Shown here piece after piece: positions 14,105 through 21,596 of a stretch of 64,000 nucleotides of DNA. Location of the stretch: contig NC_015186.1 of assembly GCF_000202835.1 (NCBI RefSeq), positions 806,001 through 870,000 on the forward strand. The letters are read 5' to 3'. A program made the position numbers and the translations under genes. This DNA comes from Acidiphilium multivorum AIU301. GTDB lineage: Bacteria; Pseudomonadota; Alphaproteobacteria; Acetobacterales; Acetobacteraceae. A model generated the notes under the pieces. The model made no database searches and was not told the DNA's origin. It was given only the letters and a program-made list of their open reading frames with translations. How positions within the stretch are numbered: position 1 is the stretch's first letter; each line of letters starts with the position of its first letter.

Positions 14105-14655
14105 TCATCAGACGCCGCACGCTTCTCGCCGCCGCCGCTTCCACCCCCCTTGCCGGAGTTTTCATGTCCGAATCCGCTTCCGCCGCCAGCACGTCGAACA
14201 CCATTCACATGACGCTGCCCTTCGGCGTCGTCACGATCGAGCTGCGCCCCGACCTCGCGCCGAAAACCTGCGAGCAGATCCGCACGCTGACCGCGCGCGG
14301 CTTCTACAACGGCTGCGAATTCTTCCGCGTGATCGCCGGCTTCATGGCGCAAACCGGCGACCCCACCAACACCGGCACCGGCGGCAGCAACCTGCCCAAC
14401 GTGCCCGCCGAGTTCACCGACAAGGCAAAGTTCCTCACCGGTTCGGTGGGCATGGCCCGCACCAGCGACCCGAACAGCGGGAACAGCCAGTTCTTCATCT
14501 GCTTCGCTCCCGCCGCCTGGCTTGACGGCCAGTACACCCTGTTCGGCCAGGTTACGGCGGGCATGGACTATGTGGACGAGATCAAGAAGGGCCAGGGCCA
14601 GAGCGGCCGGGTCACTGACCCGACCAAGATCATCAAGATGGAACTCGCCGCGTAA
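14101..14655 (+). CDS. Exported cyclophilin-type peptidyl-prolyl isomerase
   Basis: This 184-residue cyclophilin has an N-terminal export signal with an RRR start (residues 4-6, then an alanine-rich hydrophobic stretch to about 29), possibly Tat-type. The isomerase core follows, with FYNGCEFFRVIAGFMAQTGD and NSGNSQFFICFAPAAWLDGQ. It should assist folding of proteins in the periplasm. An internal ATG at 14164 could give a form without the signal, but the overlapping ATGA with coaD supports 14101. Confidence 0.92.
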   Translation: MIIRRRTLLAAAASTPLAGVFMSESASAASTSNTIHMTLPFGVVTIELRPDLAPKTCEQIRTLTARGFYNGCEFFRVIAGFMAQTGDPTNTGTGGSNLPNVPAEFTDKAKFLTGSVGMARTSDPNSGNSQFFICFAPAAWLDGQYTLFGQVTAGMDYVDEIKKGQGQSGRVTDPTKIIKMELAA

Positions 14656-14687
14656 TACCGGCAATCCGTCTCAGCCTCTTGACGAAC

Positions 14688-14725: not shown

Positions 14726-14801
14726 GAGCCCGTAGCTCAGTTGGTAGAGCACGAGACTTTTAATCTTGGGGTCCAGGGTTCGAATCCCTGCGGGCTCACC
14801 A
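14726..14801 (+). tRNA. tRNA-Lys (anticodon TTT)
   Basis: A 76-base cloverleaf: acceptor GAGCCCG pairs with CGGGCTC at 14791-14797. The D-arm has TAGCTCAGTTGGTAGAG, the anticodon loop CTTTTAA carries TTT, the T-arm is AGGGTTCGAATCCCT, and the discriminator A is followed by an encoded CCA (14799-14801). It marks the left border of the accessory region. Confidence 0.97.
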
Positions 14802-15262: not shown

Positions 15263-15310
15263 CGATCATCGATCATCGATCATCGATCATCGATCATCGA
15301 TCATCGATCA
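15263..15310. repeat. 7-bp tandem repeat, about 6.9 copies
   Basis: The unit CGATCAT repeats without interruption from 15263 to 15310. Each junction creates ATCGAT. The array is in non-coding sequence and such short perfect arrays change length by slippage. Confidence 0.95.
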
Positions 15311-15390
15311 CGTCATCGCATCCAGGCGCATTGCGGGCGACGGCTGTGGCAACAGAACCACAGATCGTTCTTGATGTGATTCGTGGGGCG

Positions 15391-15498
15391 CTAGAGCACT
15401 TTCCGATCCTTTTGAATCGGATGTAGTGCTCTATCATGCTGATAAATCGAGCATTTTTATCCGATCAGATGACTCCATCTGATCGGATGATGCTCTAG
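15391..15498. repeat. Nested palindromic intergenic element (MITE-like)
   Basis: The 108-bp block is bounded by CTAGAGCA (15391-15398) and its reverse complement TGCTCTAG (15491-15498). Inside, TAGAGCACT (15392-15400) pairs with AGTGCTCTA (15425-15433) around a CCGAT/ATCGG inner stem. A second hairpin has 13-bp arms, 15459-15471 and 15476-15488. Palindromes of this flavour are dispersed between genes in several alphaproteobacteria; whether copies occur elsewhere in this genome cannot be seen here. Confidence 0.75.
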
Positions 15499-15911
15499 TC
15501 GGTGAAGCGGGCGGCGAAGCGTTCGGTCAATCTGATCGCCCGATCGCCTGCTCCCGGCGGCTGCACGTCTGCATCCTGGGAGAGCGCTCCGCCGGCGAAC
15601 CCGATCGCGACTAAAGAGCTGCAAACGATTCCTCTCTCGAATTTCTCCGCGACGACGCTCTGTCCGCATCGGGCGCACTGCGCTGTCTCGTATAATTGCT
15701 TTGCCGCAGATCAACTTGTGCCGATTCAGAACCTCTGGGCACACGCCTGCGTGAGAAATGCAGGTTAGTGAGTTTTGCCTTTGGCACATTCCGATCCTTC
15801 CTGTTCGGATGATGATCTGGCCGCAGCGCAACTGCTTAACGGCCCGTTGCGTTAACGATAACGGAACGTCATTATTTCGACGTATGTCCATACGAATTTG
15901 ATCGGCAATAT

Positions 15912-17007
15912 GTATATAACTTGCCTATCCGGTTGACTCCCATACCTACTAGATCTAGTGTTGGGCATGGATGTCCTGGCCCGTGAAGACCTGCCGTTCC
16001 CGCAGTCTCTGCCGGAATTCCAGCGTATTTTCCCGAACGACGCGGCCTGTGCCGCCTATCTCGAAAGCGCCCGCTGGAATGGAGGGTTCGCCTGCCCAAG
16101 GTGCGGCGTCGTTGGCGAGCCGTTCCGTTTCGAGGCGCGCCCGGGCGTTCTGCGCTGCCGGGCCTGTCGCAAAGACGTAAGCCTGATGGCTGGGACCGTT
16201 ATGGAACGCAGTCACACGCCGCTGTCGACTTGGTTCTGGGCGGCTTACTTGATCGCCAGCCAGACGCCCGGAATGTCGGCCGTCCAATTTCAGCGGCAAC
16301 TCGGCCTGTCGCGCTACGAGACCGCCTTCGGCATCCTTCATAAGCTGCGCGCCGGGATGGTGCGCCCCGAGCGCGACAAGATTGGCGACACGCCGCAAGA
16401 ACACGTCGAAGTGGATGAAACGTGGGTTGGAGGACGAACCCGAGGCGATGGACGGGGTGTCCATCACAAGGTTCTCGTCGCCTGTGCCGTGGAGGTGCGC
16501 CACCGGAAACCGGGAACCAAGCTCGACAATCGGAAAGACGGTCGCTACGCGGGACGCGTTCGTCTCGCTGTTGTCCCCGACCGTAGCGCCAATTCGCTCT
16601 GCGGATTCGTCGAAAACGCCGTTGCTCCCGGATCGCTGATCGTTACCGACGACTGGAGCGGCTATGCCGGTCTCGGAAGGCGCGGGTTCGACCACCATGC
16701 AATCGCCGAATGCGGCGACCCGGAGGTGGCAGAAGAATTCCTGCCGATCGTCCACTTGGTCTTTACCAACCTGAAGACCTGGATCAACGGCATCCATCAC
16801 GGGGTCAGCGCCAAACATCTACAAGCCTACCTCAATGAATTCACGTTTCGGTTCAACCGGCGCCTCTATCCCTTCAACGCGTTCCGCTCGCTGCTCGGAA
16901 TCGCGGGTAGGGCAGCCGCACCAACCTTTGACGAGCTTTATTCCGGGGAATGGACACACCCTACATTTAGTGGGTGTGGGTAACAACCGGATAGGCAAGG
17001 TATATAA
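15912..17007 (+). mobile_element. Intact IS1595-family (ISXO2-like) insertion sequence with target duplication
   Basis: The element spans 15920-16999 (1080 bp). Its terminal inverted repeats are 16 bp and perfect: CTTGCCTATCCGGTTG at 15920-15935 and its complement at 16984-16999. An 8-bp target duplication, GTATATAA, flanks it at 15912-15919 and 17000-17007, as expected for the IS1595 family. A single full-length transposase fills the interior with no stop or frameshift. Exact ends and an intact duplication point to a recent insertion into AT-rich DNA. Confidence 0.95.
15967..16983 (+). CDS. IS1595-family (ISXO2-like) transposase
   Basis: This is a DDE transposase of about 338 residues. It begins with a zinc-ribbon domain (CPRCG, then CRACRK about 20 residues later), followed by the catalytic core. 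The first aspartate is in VEVDETWVGG, the second in LIVTDDWSGYAGL, and the third acidic residue is in the HLQAYLNEFTFRFNRR region, all typical of ISXO2-like enzymes. The ATG at 15967 is chosen; GTG at 15958 in frame is an alternative. The stop lies 16 bases inside the right end of the element. Confidence 0.93.
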   Translation: MDVLAREDLPFPQSLPEFQRIFPNDAACAAYLESARWNGGFACPRCGVVGEPFRFEARPGVLRCRACRKDVSLMAGTVMERSHTPLSTWFWAAYLIASQTPGMSAVQFQRQLGLSRYETAFGILHKLRAGMVRPERDKIGDTPQEHVEVDETWVGGRTRGDGRGVHHKVLVACAVEVRHRKPGTKLDNRKDGRYAGRVRLAVVPDRSANSLCGFVENAVAPGSLIVTDDWSGYAGLGRRGFDHHAIAECGDPEVAEEFLPIVHLVFTNLKTWINGIHHGVSAKHLQAYLNEFTFRFNRRLYPFNAFRSLLGIAGRAAAPTFDELYSGEWTHPTFSGCG

Positions 17008-17332
17008 AAATATCTAACAAAATCTATACTATTATCAATATCTGTATGCATAAAAATCGTGAAGCGCGACGCTACCTAAAATCGTATCATTAGTATTATT
17101 TTTTAACGTTGACCTCCATCGATACATCCGTGATAGTTAATTCAGAGTTAGTGATTCGGTCTACTCATTCCATTTTCGAGTTTTTCATTTTTAATGAGAC
17201 AAAATGCTATGTTGTTTGAGAGTTCTTAACAATGAAGCAAGCTAATAATTTAGAGATATGTCATTTATTGTTAGAATTGAGATCTTCTCAGGCTACTTCT
17301 GGCTACATTTATCAGAATGATTGTCATTTTGA
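17008..17332. other. AT-rich intergenic stretch right of the insertion sequence
   Basis: This stretch is markedly AT-rich compared with the chromosome around it. No gene is supported. A weak open frame from 17232 (MKQANNLEICHLLLEL) runs into GC-rich sequence without family similarity and is not called. The stretch may contain the promoter for the collagen-like gene at 17573. Confidence 0.5.
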
Positions 17333-17572: not shown

Positions 17573-20500
17573 ATGTCAGGTTCGATTACTGTAAGCCCCG
17601 CGACGGGAAGTTACGGCGATGTTGTTTTGAGCGGAAATTACACAGATGTAGCAGCGTATGGTACGCCGCTTGTGGCCGTACTGGTTACGGCAAATGGTGA
17701 TAATTATACCTACACACAAATTGGTGTCATTTATGACTATTCCGATCCCAACAATGGTGATGACGCGTCGAGGAATGGTAATAATGGAGATCCATTTACA
17801 TTAACTGTTTCTCTGCCTACCGGAACGTATTCTGTATATACGTATTCTGACTTTTCGGATAGTTCTGGAGCAAGTATCAGTAAAGTTCCCATAAGCACCG
17901 GCAGTGCAGGCACGATCGTTTTTATTGATCCGTCTAATGCTGACCAAGTCACAAGCTTGGTGACGTCTCTGTCAATTTCATCCGTAGGGTCGCTGGGCCC
18001 GACCGGCCCGGCGGGCGCGACGGGTGCCACAGGCGCCACGGGCGCGACAGGCGCAACAGGTGCCACCGGCGCGACGGGTGCCACGGGCGCGACGGGTGCC
18101 ACCGGAGCCACGGGCGCGATGGGTGCCACAGGCGCCACCGGCGCGATGGGCGCCACCGGCGCGATGGGTGCCACGGGCGCGACGGGTGCCACGGGCGCGA
18201 CGGGTGCCACCGGAGCCACCGGCGCGACGGGTGCCACGGGCGCCACGGGCGCCACCGGCGCGACGGGTGCCACCGGCGCCACGGGTGCGACGGGTGCCAC
18301 CGGCGCGACGGGTGCCACCGGCGCAACGGGCGCGATGGGTGCCACGGGTGCGACGGGTGCCACCGGCGCGACGGGTGCCACGGGCGCCACCGGCGCGATG
18401 GGTGCCACCGGCGCAACGGGCGCGATGGGTGCCACCGGCGCCACGGGTGCCACCGGCGCGACGGGTGCCACCGGCGCCACGGGTGCGACGGGTGCCACCG
18501 GCGCGATGGGTGCCACAGGCGCCACGGGCGCAACCGGAGCCACCGGCGCGACGGGTGCCACGGGCGCGATGGGTGCGACGGGTGCCACGGGCGCGACGGG
18601 TGCCACCGGCGCCACGGGCGCGATGGGTGCCACGGGCGCAACGGGTGCCACCGGCGCGATGGGTGCCACCGGCGCAACGGGCGCAATGGGTGCCACGGGT
18701 GCGACGGGTGCCACCGGCGCCACGGGCGCGACGTGCCACCGGCGCGACGGGTGCCACGGGCGCCACCGGCGCGATGGGTGCCACCGGCGCGATGGGTGCC
18801 ACCGGCGCAACGGGTGCGACGGGTGCCACCGGCGCAACGGGTGCCACCGGCGCCACGGGCGCAACCGGAGCCACCGGCGCGACGGGTGCCACGGGCGCGA
18901 TGGGTGCGACGGGTGCCACGGGCGCAACGGGTGCCACCGGAGCCACGGGCGCGATGGGTGCGACGGGTGCCACGGGCGCGATGGGTGCGACGGGTGCCAC
19001 CGGCGCAACGGGTGCCACCGGCGCGACGGGTGCCACGGGCGCCACCGGCGCGATGGGTGCCACCGGCGCGATGGGTGCCACCGGCGCGATGGGTGCCACC
19101 GGCGCAACGGGTGCGACGGGTGCCACCGGCGCAACGGGTGCCACCGGCGCCACGGGCGCAACCGGAGCCACCGGCGCGACGGGTGCCACGGGCGCGATGG
19201 GTGCGACGGGTGCCACGGGCGCAACGGGTGCCACCGGAGCCACGGGCGCGATGGGTGCGACGGGTGCCACCGGCGCAACGGGTGCCACCGGCGCCACGGG
19301 CGCGATGGGTGCCACGGGCGCGACGGGTGCCACCGGCGCGACGGGTGCCACGGGCGCAACCGGAGCCACCGGAGCCACCGGCGCGACGGGTGCCACGGGC
19401 GCAACGGGCGCGACGGGTGCGACGGGTGCCACCGGAGCCACGGGTGCCACCGGCGCAACGGGTGCCACCGGAGCCACGGGTGCCACGGGCGCCACGGGCG
19501 CGATGGGTGCCACCGGAGCCACGGGTGCCACCGGCGCGACGGGTGCCACGGGCGCCACGGGTGCGACGGGTGCCACCGGCGCGATGGGTGCCACGGGTGC
19601 GACGGGTGCGACGGGCGCAACGGGTGCCACCGGCGCGACGGGTGCCACAGGCGCCACGGGCGCGATGGGTGCCACAGGCGCCACCGGCGCGACGGGTGCC
19701 ACCGGCGCGATGGGTGCCACCGGAGCCACGGGTGCCACCGGCGCGACGGGCGCCACGGGCGCGATGGGTGCCACCGGAGCCACGGGTGCCACCGGCGCGA
19801 CGGGCGCCACGGGTGCGACGGGTGCCACCGGAGCCACCGGCGCGACGGGCGCAACGGGCGCGACGGGTGCGACGGGTGCCACGGGCGCAACGGGTGCCAC
19901 CGGAGCCACGGGCGCGATGGGTGCGACGGGTGCCACCGGCGCGACGGGTGCCACGGGCGCCACGGGTGCGACGGGTGCCACCGGCGCGACGGGTGCCACC
20001 GGCGCAACGGGCGCGATGGGTGCCACGGGCGCGACGGGTGCCACCGGCGCGACGGGTGCCACGGGCGCAACCGGAGCCACCGGAGCCACCGGTGCGACGG
20101 GTGCCACAGGCGCCACGGGCGCGACGGGTGCCACCGGCGCGACGGGTGCCACGGGCGCCACCGGCGCGATGGGTGCCACCGGCGCCACGGGTGCCACCGG
20201 CGCGACGGGTGCCACCGGCGCCACGGGTGCGACGGGTGCCACCGGCGCGATGGGTGCCACAGGCGCCACAGGCGCCACGGGCGCAACCGGAGCCACCGGC
20301 GCGACGGGTGCCACAGGCGCGACGGGTGCCACGGGTGCCACGGGCGCCACGGGTGCCACAGGCGCCACCGGCGCGACGGGTGCCACGGGCGCCACGGGCG
20401 CCACGGGTGCCACCGGCGCCACGGGTGCCACAGGCGCAACGGGCGCGATGGGTGCCACGGGCGCCACGGGCGCCACGGGTGCCACCGGCGCGACGGGTGC

Positions 20501-21596
20501 CACAGGCGCAACGGGCGCGATGGGTGCCACGGGCGCAACCGGAGCCACAGGTGCCACGGGCGCGACGGGTGCCACAGGCGCGACGGGTGCCACGGGTGCC
20601 ACAGGTGCCACGGGCGCAACGGGTGCCACCGGCGCGACGGGTGCCACGGGCGCGACGGGTGCCACGGGCGCAACGGGTGCGACGGGTGGAAATCCCTGCT
20701 TCGCAGAGGGGACGCGGATTGCGACTGTGCGGGGTGACGTGCCGGTAGAGGAGTTGGTCGCAGGCGATGTGGTCGTGCTGCACGACGGCGGAACGGCGCC
20801 GGTGGTGTGGCTCGGCTATCGCACGATCGACCTCGACCGCCACGCCAGACCCGAGGCGGTGCAGCCGATCGTGATCGACGCCGGCGCCATTGCCGACGGC
20901 ATCCCGGTCCGCGACCTGATCGTCTCGCCGGATCACGCTTTCTACCTCGACGGCGTGCTCATCCCGGCAAAGGCGCTGGTTAACGGCGCGACGATCCGGC
21001 AGCTCCGGCGCAGCCAGGTCACCTACTTCCATGTCGAGCTGCCGCAGCATGCGGTACTTCTGGCGGAAGGCATGGCTGCGGAGAGCTACCTCGAGACCGG
21101 CAACCGCCCGGCCTTCGAGAATGGCGGTGACGCGATCATCCTGCATCCGGACTTCGCGCAGGCCCTGCGCGAGACCGGAAGCTGCGCGCCCTTCGCCGAG
21201 GAAGGCGCGATCGTGGAACGGGTCCGGGCACGCATCTTGGCCCGGGCCGGGATCGAGACCACGGACGATGCGGATCTCAAGATCCGGTATCGGGCCGATG
21301 GCGCGGCGGTGATCACCTCGCGCACGGCGATCCCGGGCTACCTGACCCCGGATCCGCGTGACCGCCGCGTGCTCGGTGTCAAGATCGGCGCGATGATGCT
21401 TGGCGACGAGCCGATCGCGCTCGATCACCCGGCATTGACCGAGGGCTGGCATGACGTCGAGGCCGACGGCCGCTGGACTGGCGGTGCGGCGGTGGTGCCG
21501 GCCAGCCTGATCAACGGCCGCACGCTCACGATCACCGTGGTCGGCACGCTCGCCTACCCGGCCCACGGCGCAAACCGCAGCGTCGAAGCCGGCTGA
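17573..21596 (+). pseudogene. Giant collagen-like (Gly-Ala-Thr)n protein with C-terminal Hint domain, frameshifted
   Basis: Three parts are visible. Residues 1-141 form an unrecognised, AT-rich-encoded beta-type domain (starts [19 protein letters not shown]). From 17996 to 20684 come about 299 Gly-X-Y triplets, nearly all Gly-Ala-Thr with scattered Gly-Ala-Met. From about 20691 a Hint domain (PF13403-like) follows: [20 protein letters not shown], then [16 protein letters not shown], with Cys as presumed nucleophile. Two bases are missing at about 18733-18735 (ACGTGCC where every other unit has ACGGGTGCC), which moves the second part into another frame. Translation from 17573 would leave the collagen phase at once and end at 20737 with a scrambled tail. 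With the two bases restored the protein is about 1341 residues. It could be a decayed gene, a phase-variable one, or an assembly error in the repeat. No classical signal peptide is seen; secretion by a type I route is possible. A GC-rich hairpin follows the stop. Confidence 0.8.
17996..20684 (+). repeat. 9-bp collagen-type coding repeat array (Gly-Ala-Thr)
   Basis: About 2.69 kb of GGY-GCN-ACN units, with synonymous third-base changes (GGT/GGC, GCC/GCG/GCA, ACG/ACC/ACA) and occasional ATG replacing ACN. Longer blocks recur inside the array; for example the segment around 18730-18910 is closely repeated around 19020-19200, which shows block duplication. All six frames are nearly free of stops here, so long antisense open frames are artefacts. 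Confidence 0.97.

Follow-up and report, generated by a model that had tools for sequence, protein, structure and literature searches.

The gene at 17573-21596 of the window, by which we mean the whole analysed stretch of 64,000 nucleotides from Acidiphilium multivorum AIU301, combines an N-terminal domain, a collagen-like tract of Gly-Ala-Thr triplets and a C-terminal Hint_2 domain, with a two-base frame break inside the tract (Table 1). We read it as a strain-specific member, carrying a collagen-like rod as its passenger, of a class of Hint_2-terminated and probably secreted or cell-surface proteins of the Acetobacterales, and put the probability of this reading at roughly 0.55. The preliminary description had placed all three parts in a single frame; the domain content was recovered as described, while the single frame was not. 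The 4024 bases of the gene are not divisible by 3 and hold two reading frames instead of one. The frame from the initial ATG drops out of the triplet register near position 18,725 and does not regain it before its stop codon, the last base of which is 20,737; the Hint part of the gene is without internal stops. Since the break splits the tract, the gene as sequenced encodes no fusion of the rod to the Hint domain, unless the break is an assembly error.

Table 1. Features of the collagen-Hint gene and of the DNA to its left (positions in the window).
Feature	Position	Strand	Remarks
tRNA-Lys (ttt)	14726-14801	+	ARAGORN; DNA conserved with congeners ends at its 3' end
IS1595-family insertion sequence	15920-16999	+	transposase frame 15958-16983; PF12762, 5.4e-40
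N-terminal domain, 141 residues	17573-17995	+	opens at ATG 17573; no family above cut-off
Collagen-like tract, part 1, 81 Gly-X-Y triplets	17996-18724	+	in frame with ATG 17573
Two-base frame break within the tract	18725-18740	+	counted against the repeat unit
Collagen-like tract, part 2, 216 Gly-X-Y triplets	18741-20684	+	in frame with the Hint domain
Hint_2 domain (PF13403)	20694-21098	+	profile match; invariant Cys at 20697-20699
C-terminal extension after Hint_2, and stop codon	21099-21596	+	helix, then lower-confidence strands (model)

The C-terminal domain matched the Hint_2 profile with an E value of 9.8e-49 and a score of 165.9 bits, against a curated cut-off of 28.4. We aligned 45 rows representing 38 distinct genes (six rows are second entries of genes already present, and L001 is the same gene as the window row), excluding four fragment matches (L007-L010). 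The Cys that had been proposed as the site of self-cleavage, the His of a Ser-Pro-x-His motif and two further His were invariant in all 45 rows, the window included, and the Hint_2 module and its extension were conserved together in most of them. We take the invariant Cys and the active-site His to have the catalytic roles assigned to them after inteins. A structural model of the domain, a step that the preliminary description had proposed, was built from five sequences and gave ten-residue mean pLDDT values of 80-93 over residues 1-130, with weaker strands beyond. The predicted fold is a HINT fold: Foldseek paired the model best with 6rix, a DnaB intein (1.1e-5), and with 2lwy, a bacterial intein-like domain (6.4e-5), and of the 13 solved structures matched at E <= 0.001, 12 are inteins or an intein-like domain and one is a T cell receptor. 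A sequence search of the PDB with the Hint region gave no matches at E 1.

Judged by sequence, the relatives of this strain commonly have proteins of a class that as a rule carries Hint_2 as its C-terminal module. A match to the Hint region was present in 31 of 60 genomes, the window genome included, and single genomes had as many as 23 Hint_2 matches, some of which are pieces of one gene. The window genome (G000) has eight PF13403 matches, two of which are apparently halves of one gene, so that the number of genes is about seven; the split gene (G000:C6:2018050-2019857, L115) is apparently in two pieces about 1.2 kb apart. The PF13403 cut-off was passed in 5 of 190 genomes drawn from the taxonomic class, and 208 of 72,556 plasmid records matched Hint_2 at E 1e-5. 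These records came from many alphaproteobacterial genera, including Sinorhizobium, Paracoccus and Phaeobacter, with one Cupriavidus plasmid among the matches listed. A confinement of Hint_2 to two families was rejected on the basis of the class draw and the plasmid matches. In seven full proteins that were scanned, Hint_2 was followed by 164-193 residues and stood behind varied passengers, some with Ser/Gly-rich repeats. The class is known to databases as a domain, and we found little on it in the literature.

The nearest homologue (76%, L041 in G004) is a repetitive protein of 1,110 residues encoded directly behind a TibC-type heptosyltransferase gene (PF21129, 6e-19; the two genes together at L041:370-4905). 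TibC genes were found in 4 of the 13 genomes of the genus, in all four with a same-strand Hint_2 gene behind TibC; three of these cases may represent one ancestral event. They were also present in 87 of the 299 genomes of the family, which we take to be the Acetobacteraceae of GTDB; the NCBI taxonomy places Acidiphilium in the Acidocellaceae, order Acetobacterales. Among 20 further TibC neighbourhoods, which were picked by hand, one per genome, from 19 genera and mostly for strong TibC matches, 7 had a same-strand Hint_2 gene behind TibC. This arrangement was thus present in 11 of 24 neighbourhoods (L041, L109, L203-L205, L214-L216, L220, L221, L223, L225). The Hint frame, taken from stop to stop, started 0-0.41 kb from the TibC stop in 10 of the 11 and 1.7 kb from it in L216. 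Hint_2 was not found in 13 of the 24 neighbourhoods; in L208 and L222 the next large frame exceeds the sequence examined. As a scale for chance, G010, with 15 Hint matches over 4.2 Mb, would give about 0.05 per 14 kb. The order of the genes suggests that Hint_2 may take the place of an autotransporter barrel, and it links part of the Hint_2 class to proteins of the AIDA/TibA kind. According to the accessible part of PMC4358343, TibC heptosylates proteins of this kind; the words Hint and intein are absent from that part of the text.

For the tract in the window, the gene content leaves glycosylation, which had been raised as something that Thr-rich bacterial collagen-like tracts can undergo, unsupported. 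PF21129 had no match in the window genome, so that the Thr residues are without a known modifier here, and a scan of eight neighbours in the window recognised no glycosyltransferase. Collagen matches and TibC occurred together in G018, G100, G144, G174 and G213, on different contigs. Export genes, such as a type I secretion substrate might have nearby, were recognised neither among these 8 neighbours nor among 10 genes adjoining other Hint_2 genes.

The N-terminal part and the first part of the tract, used together as a query, matched the Collagen family (PF01391) at 4e-37, above the cut-off. We counted 297 intact triplets, which fits the earlier figure of about 299; 262 of them are GAT, 33 GAM, one GPT and one GPA. 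Gly stands at every third place throughout, though over two frames (81 + 216 triplets), and Ala fills the X position in 295 of the 297. The tract had been characterised as almost free of proline and dominated by threonine in Y, and the counts bear this out, with Pro at 2 of the 594 X and Y places. The scarcity of Pro, together with the lack of charge along the tract, makes the stability of a triple helix doubtful. The GC content is 45.4% in the N-terminal DNA, 80.2% in the tract and 69.1% in the Hint region. Stops are absent from all six frames over 17,996-20,684, so that at this GC content the openness of a frame proves nothing, and the other strands and registers over the tract were rejected as genes because all six frames are open there. 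A second Gly-Ala-Thr/Ser tract, of 20 triplets, lies elsewhere in the window genome (L098:3852-4031), in a protein whose start resembles a lipoprotein signal by eye.

The pairing of a proline-poor collagen-like rod with a Hint_2 tail is real, and unique among what was examined. Across 44 Hint loci, of which L001-L040 cover at most 1.5 kb per side, the scan for Gly-X-Y runs gave the gene analysed here and, in L043, a Gly-rich run of eight, but no others. No runs of at least 10 triplets were found in seven wider Hint regions (L109-L115), and none of at least 8 in L120-L123, L144-L148, L119 and L203-L225. In the other direction, collagen matches occurred in 49 other genomes, and 30 regions around such matches, drawn from 25 of these genomes, contained no Hint domain, with several tracts reaching contig ends; as a comparison for the TibC neighbourhoods this 0/30 is weak, since the regions are shorter, were chosen around collagen genes and come partly from other genomes. 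Within the genus, a collagen match was obtained in 2 of 13 genomes, the window genome and G006; the gene in G006 is unrelated and was rejected as a relative on account of its charged, GDQGKP-type stretch and VWA-like appearance by eye. The open literature searched held no report of a bacterial collagen-Hint protein, the Hint_2 queries being swamped by the unrelated HINT2 gene; a single paper there, on nematode hedgehog-related genes, combined 'collagen-like' with 'Hint domain' (PMC1636047). The combination had been put forward as undescribed, and this applies to the pairing, which is absent elsewhere in the loci scanned, and not to the Hint part, which is one of several in the genome and belongs to a common class. 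Giant (Gly-X-Thr)n proteins were observed in other genera of the family (L088, L089, L090, L091, L107), the tract of L091 amounting to up to 454 triplets within the sequence examined; where covered, the C-terminal parts of these proteins are other than Hint.

The N-terminal domain was predicted to be mostly beta, with low confidence (model pLDDT 57.7), and has no evident Sec signal peptide by eye. It had been called unrecognised, and our searches led to the same result: the 59 other genomes gave no relative at E 0.001, their best match standing at E 0.08, and none was found in phage records or viral contigs. A Foldseek search with the weak model gave 0 matches at 0.001, and a match to DUF4458 (E 0.025) was below the cut-off and was not believed. 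The DNA encoding the domain is indeed AT-rich, as previously observed, but this alone is no proof of a recent chimera since the nearest Hint_2 paralogue is likewise AT-richer in its N-terminal part (54% GC against 69.5% in the Hint part).

To the left of the gene, each of the 12 congeners shares some DNA with the window. In five of these the shared block extends to 14801, where the tRNA-Lys gene has its 3' end, and in five more it ends near 14,651-14,656, with a short piece that ends at 14801; in G008 the shared DNA ends earlier and G002 has the tRNA piece only. Beyond the tRNA gene, there is no shared stretch of at least 120 bases between the window and five congener regions reaching about 17-18 kb onward. 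The window contains no exact repeat of the 3' end of this tRNA such as would mark the end of an island, and an island end of that kind was rejected. To the right of the rod-Hint gene lie LysR and deacetylase genes, which have relatives elsewhere in five congeners. The IS1595-family element lies 0.57 kb before the ATG, is bounded by inverted arms (15908-15961 and 16958-17011; 54 nt, 80% complementary) and has at least 22 further copies at 100% in the genome. Two other repeats were noted in this part of the window: a dispersed one of about 107 bases at 15388-15499, with 20 further copies at 76-94% among the matches listed, and about eight copies of the seven-base unit CGATCAT at 15263-15318.

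An explanation of the tract as repetitive DNA that spells Gly-Ala-Thr by accident and plays no part as protein is very improbable. The tract does contain tandem repeats of higher order (18, 45 and 63 bases), and its six frames are open, but the differences between units follow one codon register. Relative to the commonest base of the nine-base unit there are 421 differences, 385 of them synonymous at third positions and 36 non-synonymous (33 of which are one Thr-to-Met change), although these are not independent, as the units were duplicated and share differences through duplication, and a formal test of the pattern was given no weight for this reason. Positions 1 and 2 of the Gly codon show no variation in any of the 297 triplets and are unchanged in all 19 distinct unit types. 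The pattern of variation is alike before and after the break, with one codon register on each side. The protein was under constraint, in one register across the break, and the break therefore looks recent or is an assembly error. The latter, a fault of sequencing or assembly in a 2.7-kb repetitive tract of 80% GC that would leave the gene itself intact, is a real possibility, if short of even odds: exact repeats of 200 bases occur inside the tract and no other damage to the gene was seen, against which stand a chromosome assembled as one 3.75 Mb contig and a completeness rating of 99.93%. We consider it somewhat unlikely that the gene is decaying, having been acquired or rearranged in this strain by the tRNA-Lys gene, next to a recently active insertion sequence, and that the break inactivates it so that no product is made. 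The break, the end of the shared DNA at the tRNA, the identical copies of the adjacent element and an N-terminal domain with no relative at E 0.001 in the other genomes would all fit such a history, but this is the only break seen in 4 kb, the Hint part is free of stops and the triplets after the break are still under strong codon-register constraint.

A further alternative concerns the Hint_2 domain, which in this class may have ceased to cut itself and may act as a structural or export-signal module without cleavage. At the place of the C-terminal His-Asn of inteins, the domain has Glu-Ser, as judged by eye against the intein motif, and the Glu does not vary in any of the 45 rows. The chemistry to be expected is therefore cleavage or transfer on the N-terminal side, and not splicing. 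Pro before the Cys slows cleavage in model inteins, and a Pro immediately precedes the catalytic Cys in the window gene and in 15 of the 38 distinct genes. This, the absence of the C-terminal splicing residues and the joint retention of module and extension speak for a domain that no longer cuts; yet a Cys and a His that are invariant throughout the alignment are hard to explain without catalysis, and we regard the loss of self-cutting as unlikely. The four alternatives overlap, and their probabilities need not sum to one.

Under the preferred reading of a Hint_2-class protein with a collagen-like passenger, the rod of about 300 Gly-Ala-Thr triplets would take the place of the other passengers seen in the class. 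The intact chain, which lacks a Sec signal peptide, would be exported by way of its C-terminal module, and a stiff rod may form from three chains wound together. The Cys of Hint_2 would attack the preceding peptide bond to form a thioester, from which the rod could be freed by water or handed to a nucleophile, either an amine or a hydroxyl; the domain downstream may recognise the acceptor or the envelope. A wider and distinctly speculative proposal, which we think improbable as it stands, is that Hint_2 and its extension could form a general surface-attachment device of the Acetobacterales in place of the autotransporter barrel. The passengers, repetitive and sometimes heptosylated under this same joint proposal, would leave the cell, be cleaved at the Cys of Hint_2 and become covalently attached to an acceptor in the envelope, much as Hedgehog is to sterol, and the window gene would be the collagen-stalk version. 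If the class works as proposed, it would allow proteins that are long and in some cases glycosylated to be displayed through self-processing, with no autotransporter barrel, and the neighbourhoods of TibC-type and Hint_2 genes offer a direct route to testing that role. The collagen-Hint protein, if real as a product, would represent a bacterial collagen almost devoid of proline that carries the domain for its own release or coupling; the break in the sequenced copy lowers the weight of this copy.

Compared with known systems, the gene shares with the Hint_2 proteins of Alphaproteobacteria the domain itself, its near-C-terminal place, the long extension and the conserved Cys and His, and differs from them in its collagen-like passenger, which none of the other Hint_2 loci scanned showed. 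The AIDA-I/TibA autotransporters with BAHT heptosyltransferases resemble the class in that some Hint_2 genes lie behind TibC-type genes and have repetitive passengers, whereas the Hint_2 proteins end in that domain and not in a beta-barrel, and the window gene has a collagen passenger in a genome with no TibC match. The (Gly-X-Thr)n proteins of G018, G144, G174 and G213 likewise have long Thr-rich Gly-X-Y tracts, and those of L088 and L107, the two with available N-termini, start with MSG and lack an evident signal peptide, as in the window. Unlike the window gene, these proteins of relatives have no Hint domain within the sequence examined, and their C-terminal parts are, we presume by eye, DUF4214-like or RTX-like. 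A long Gly-X-Y tract with Thr in Y is also common ground with bacterial collagen-like proteins (PF01391), in which Pro is the commonest X residue according to the accessible part of a review (PMC8968730), in contrast to the Ala of the window tract; the word Hint is absent from that part. Bacterial intein-like domains (types A and B as defined in the accessible part of PMC4031507) and inteins share with the window domain the predicted HINT fold and a Cys at the domain start, whereas the latter lacks the C-terminal His-Asn by eye and has a long C-terminal extension. The organisation as a whole, a passenger followed by a Hint domain and then a further C-terminal region, is that of the Hedgehog/Hog proteins, as set out in the accessible part of PMC2362128.
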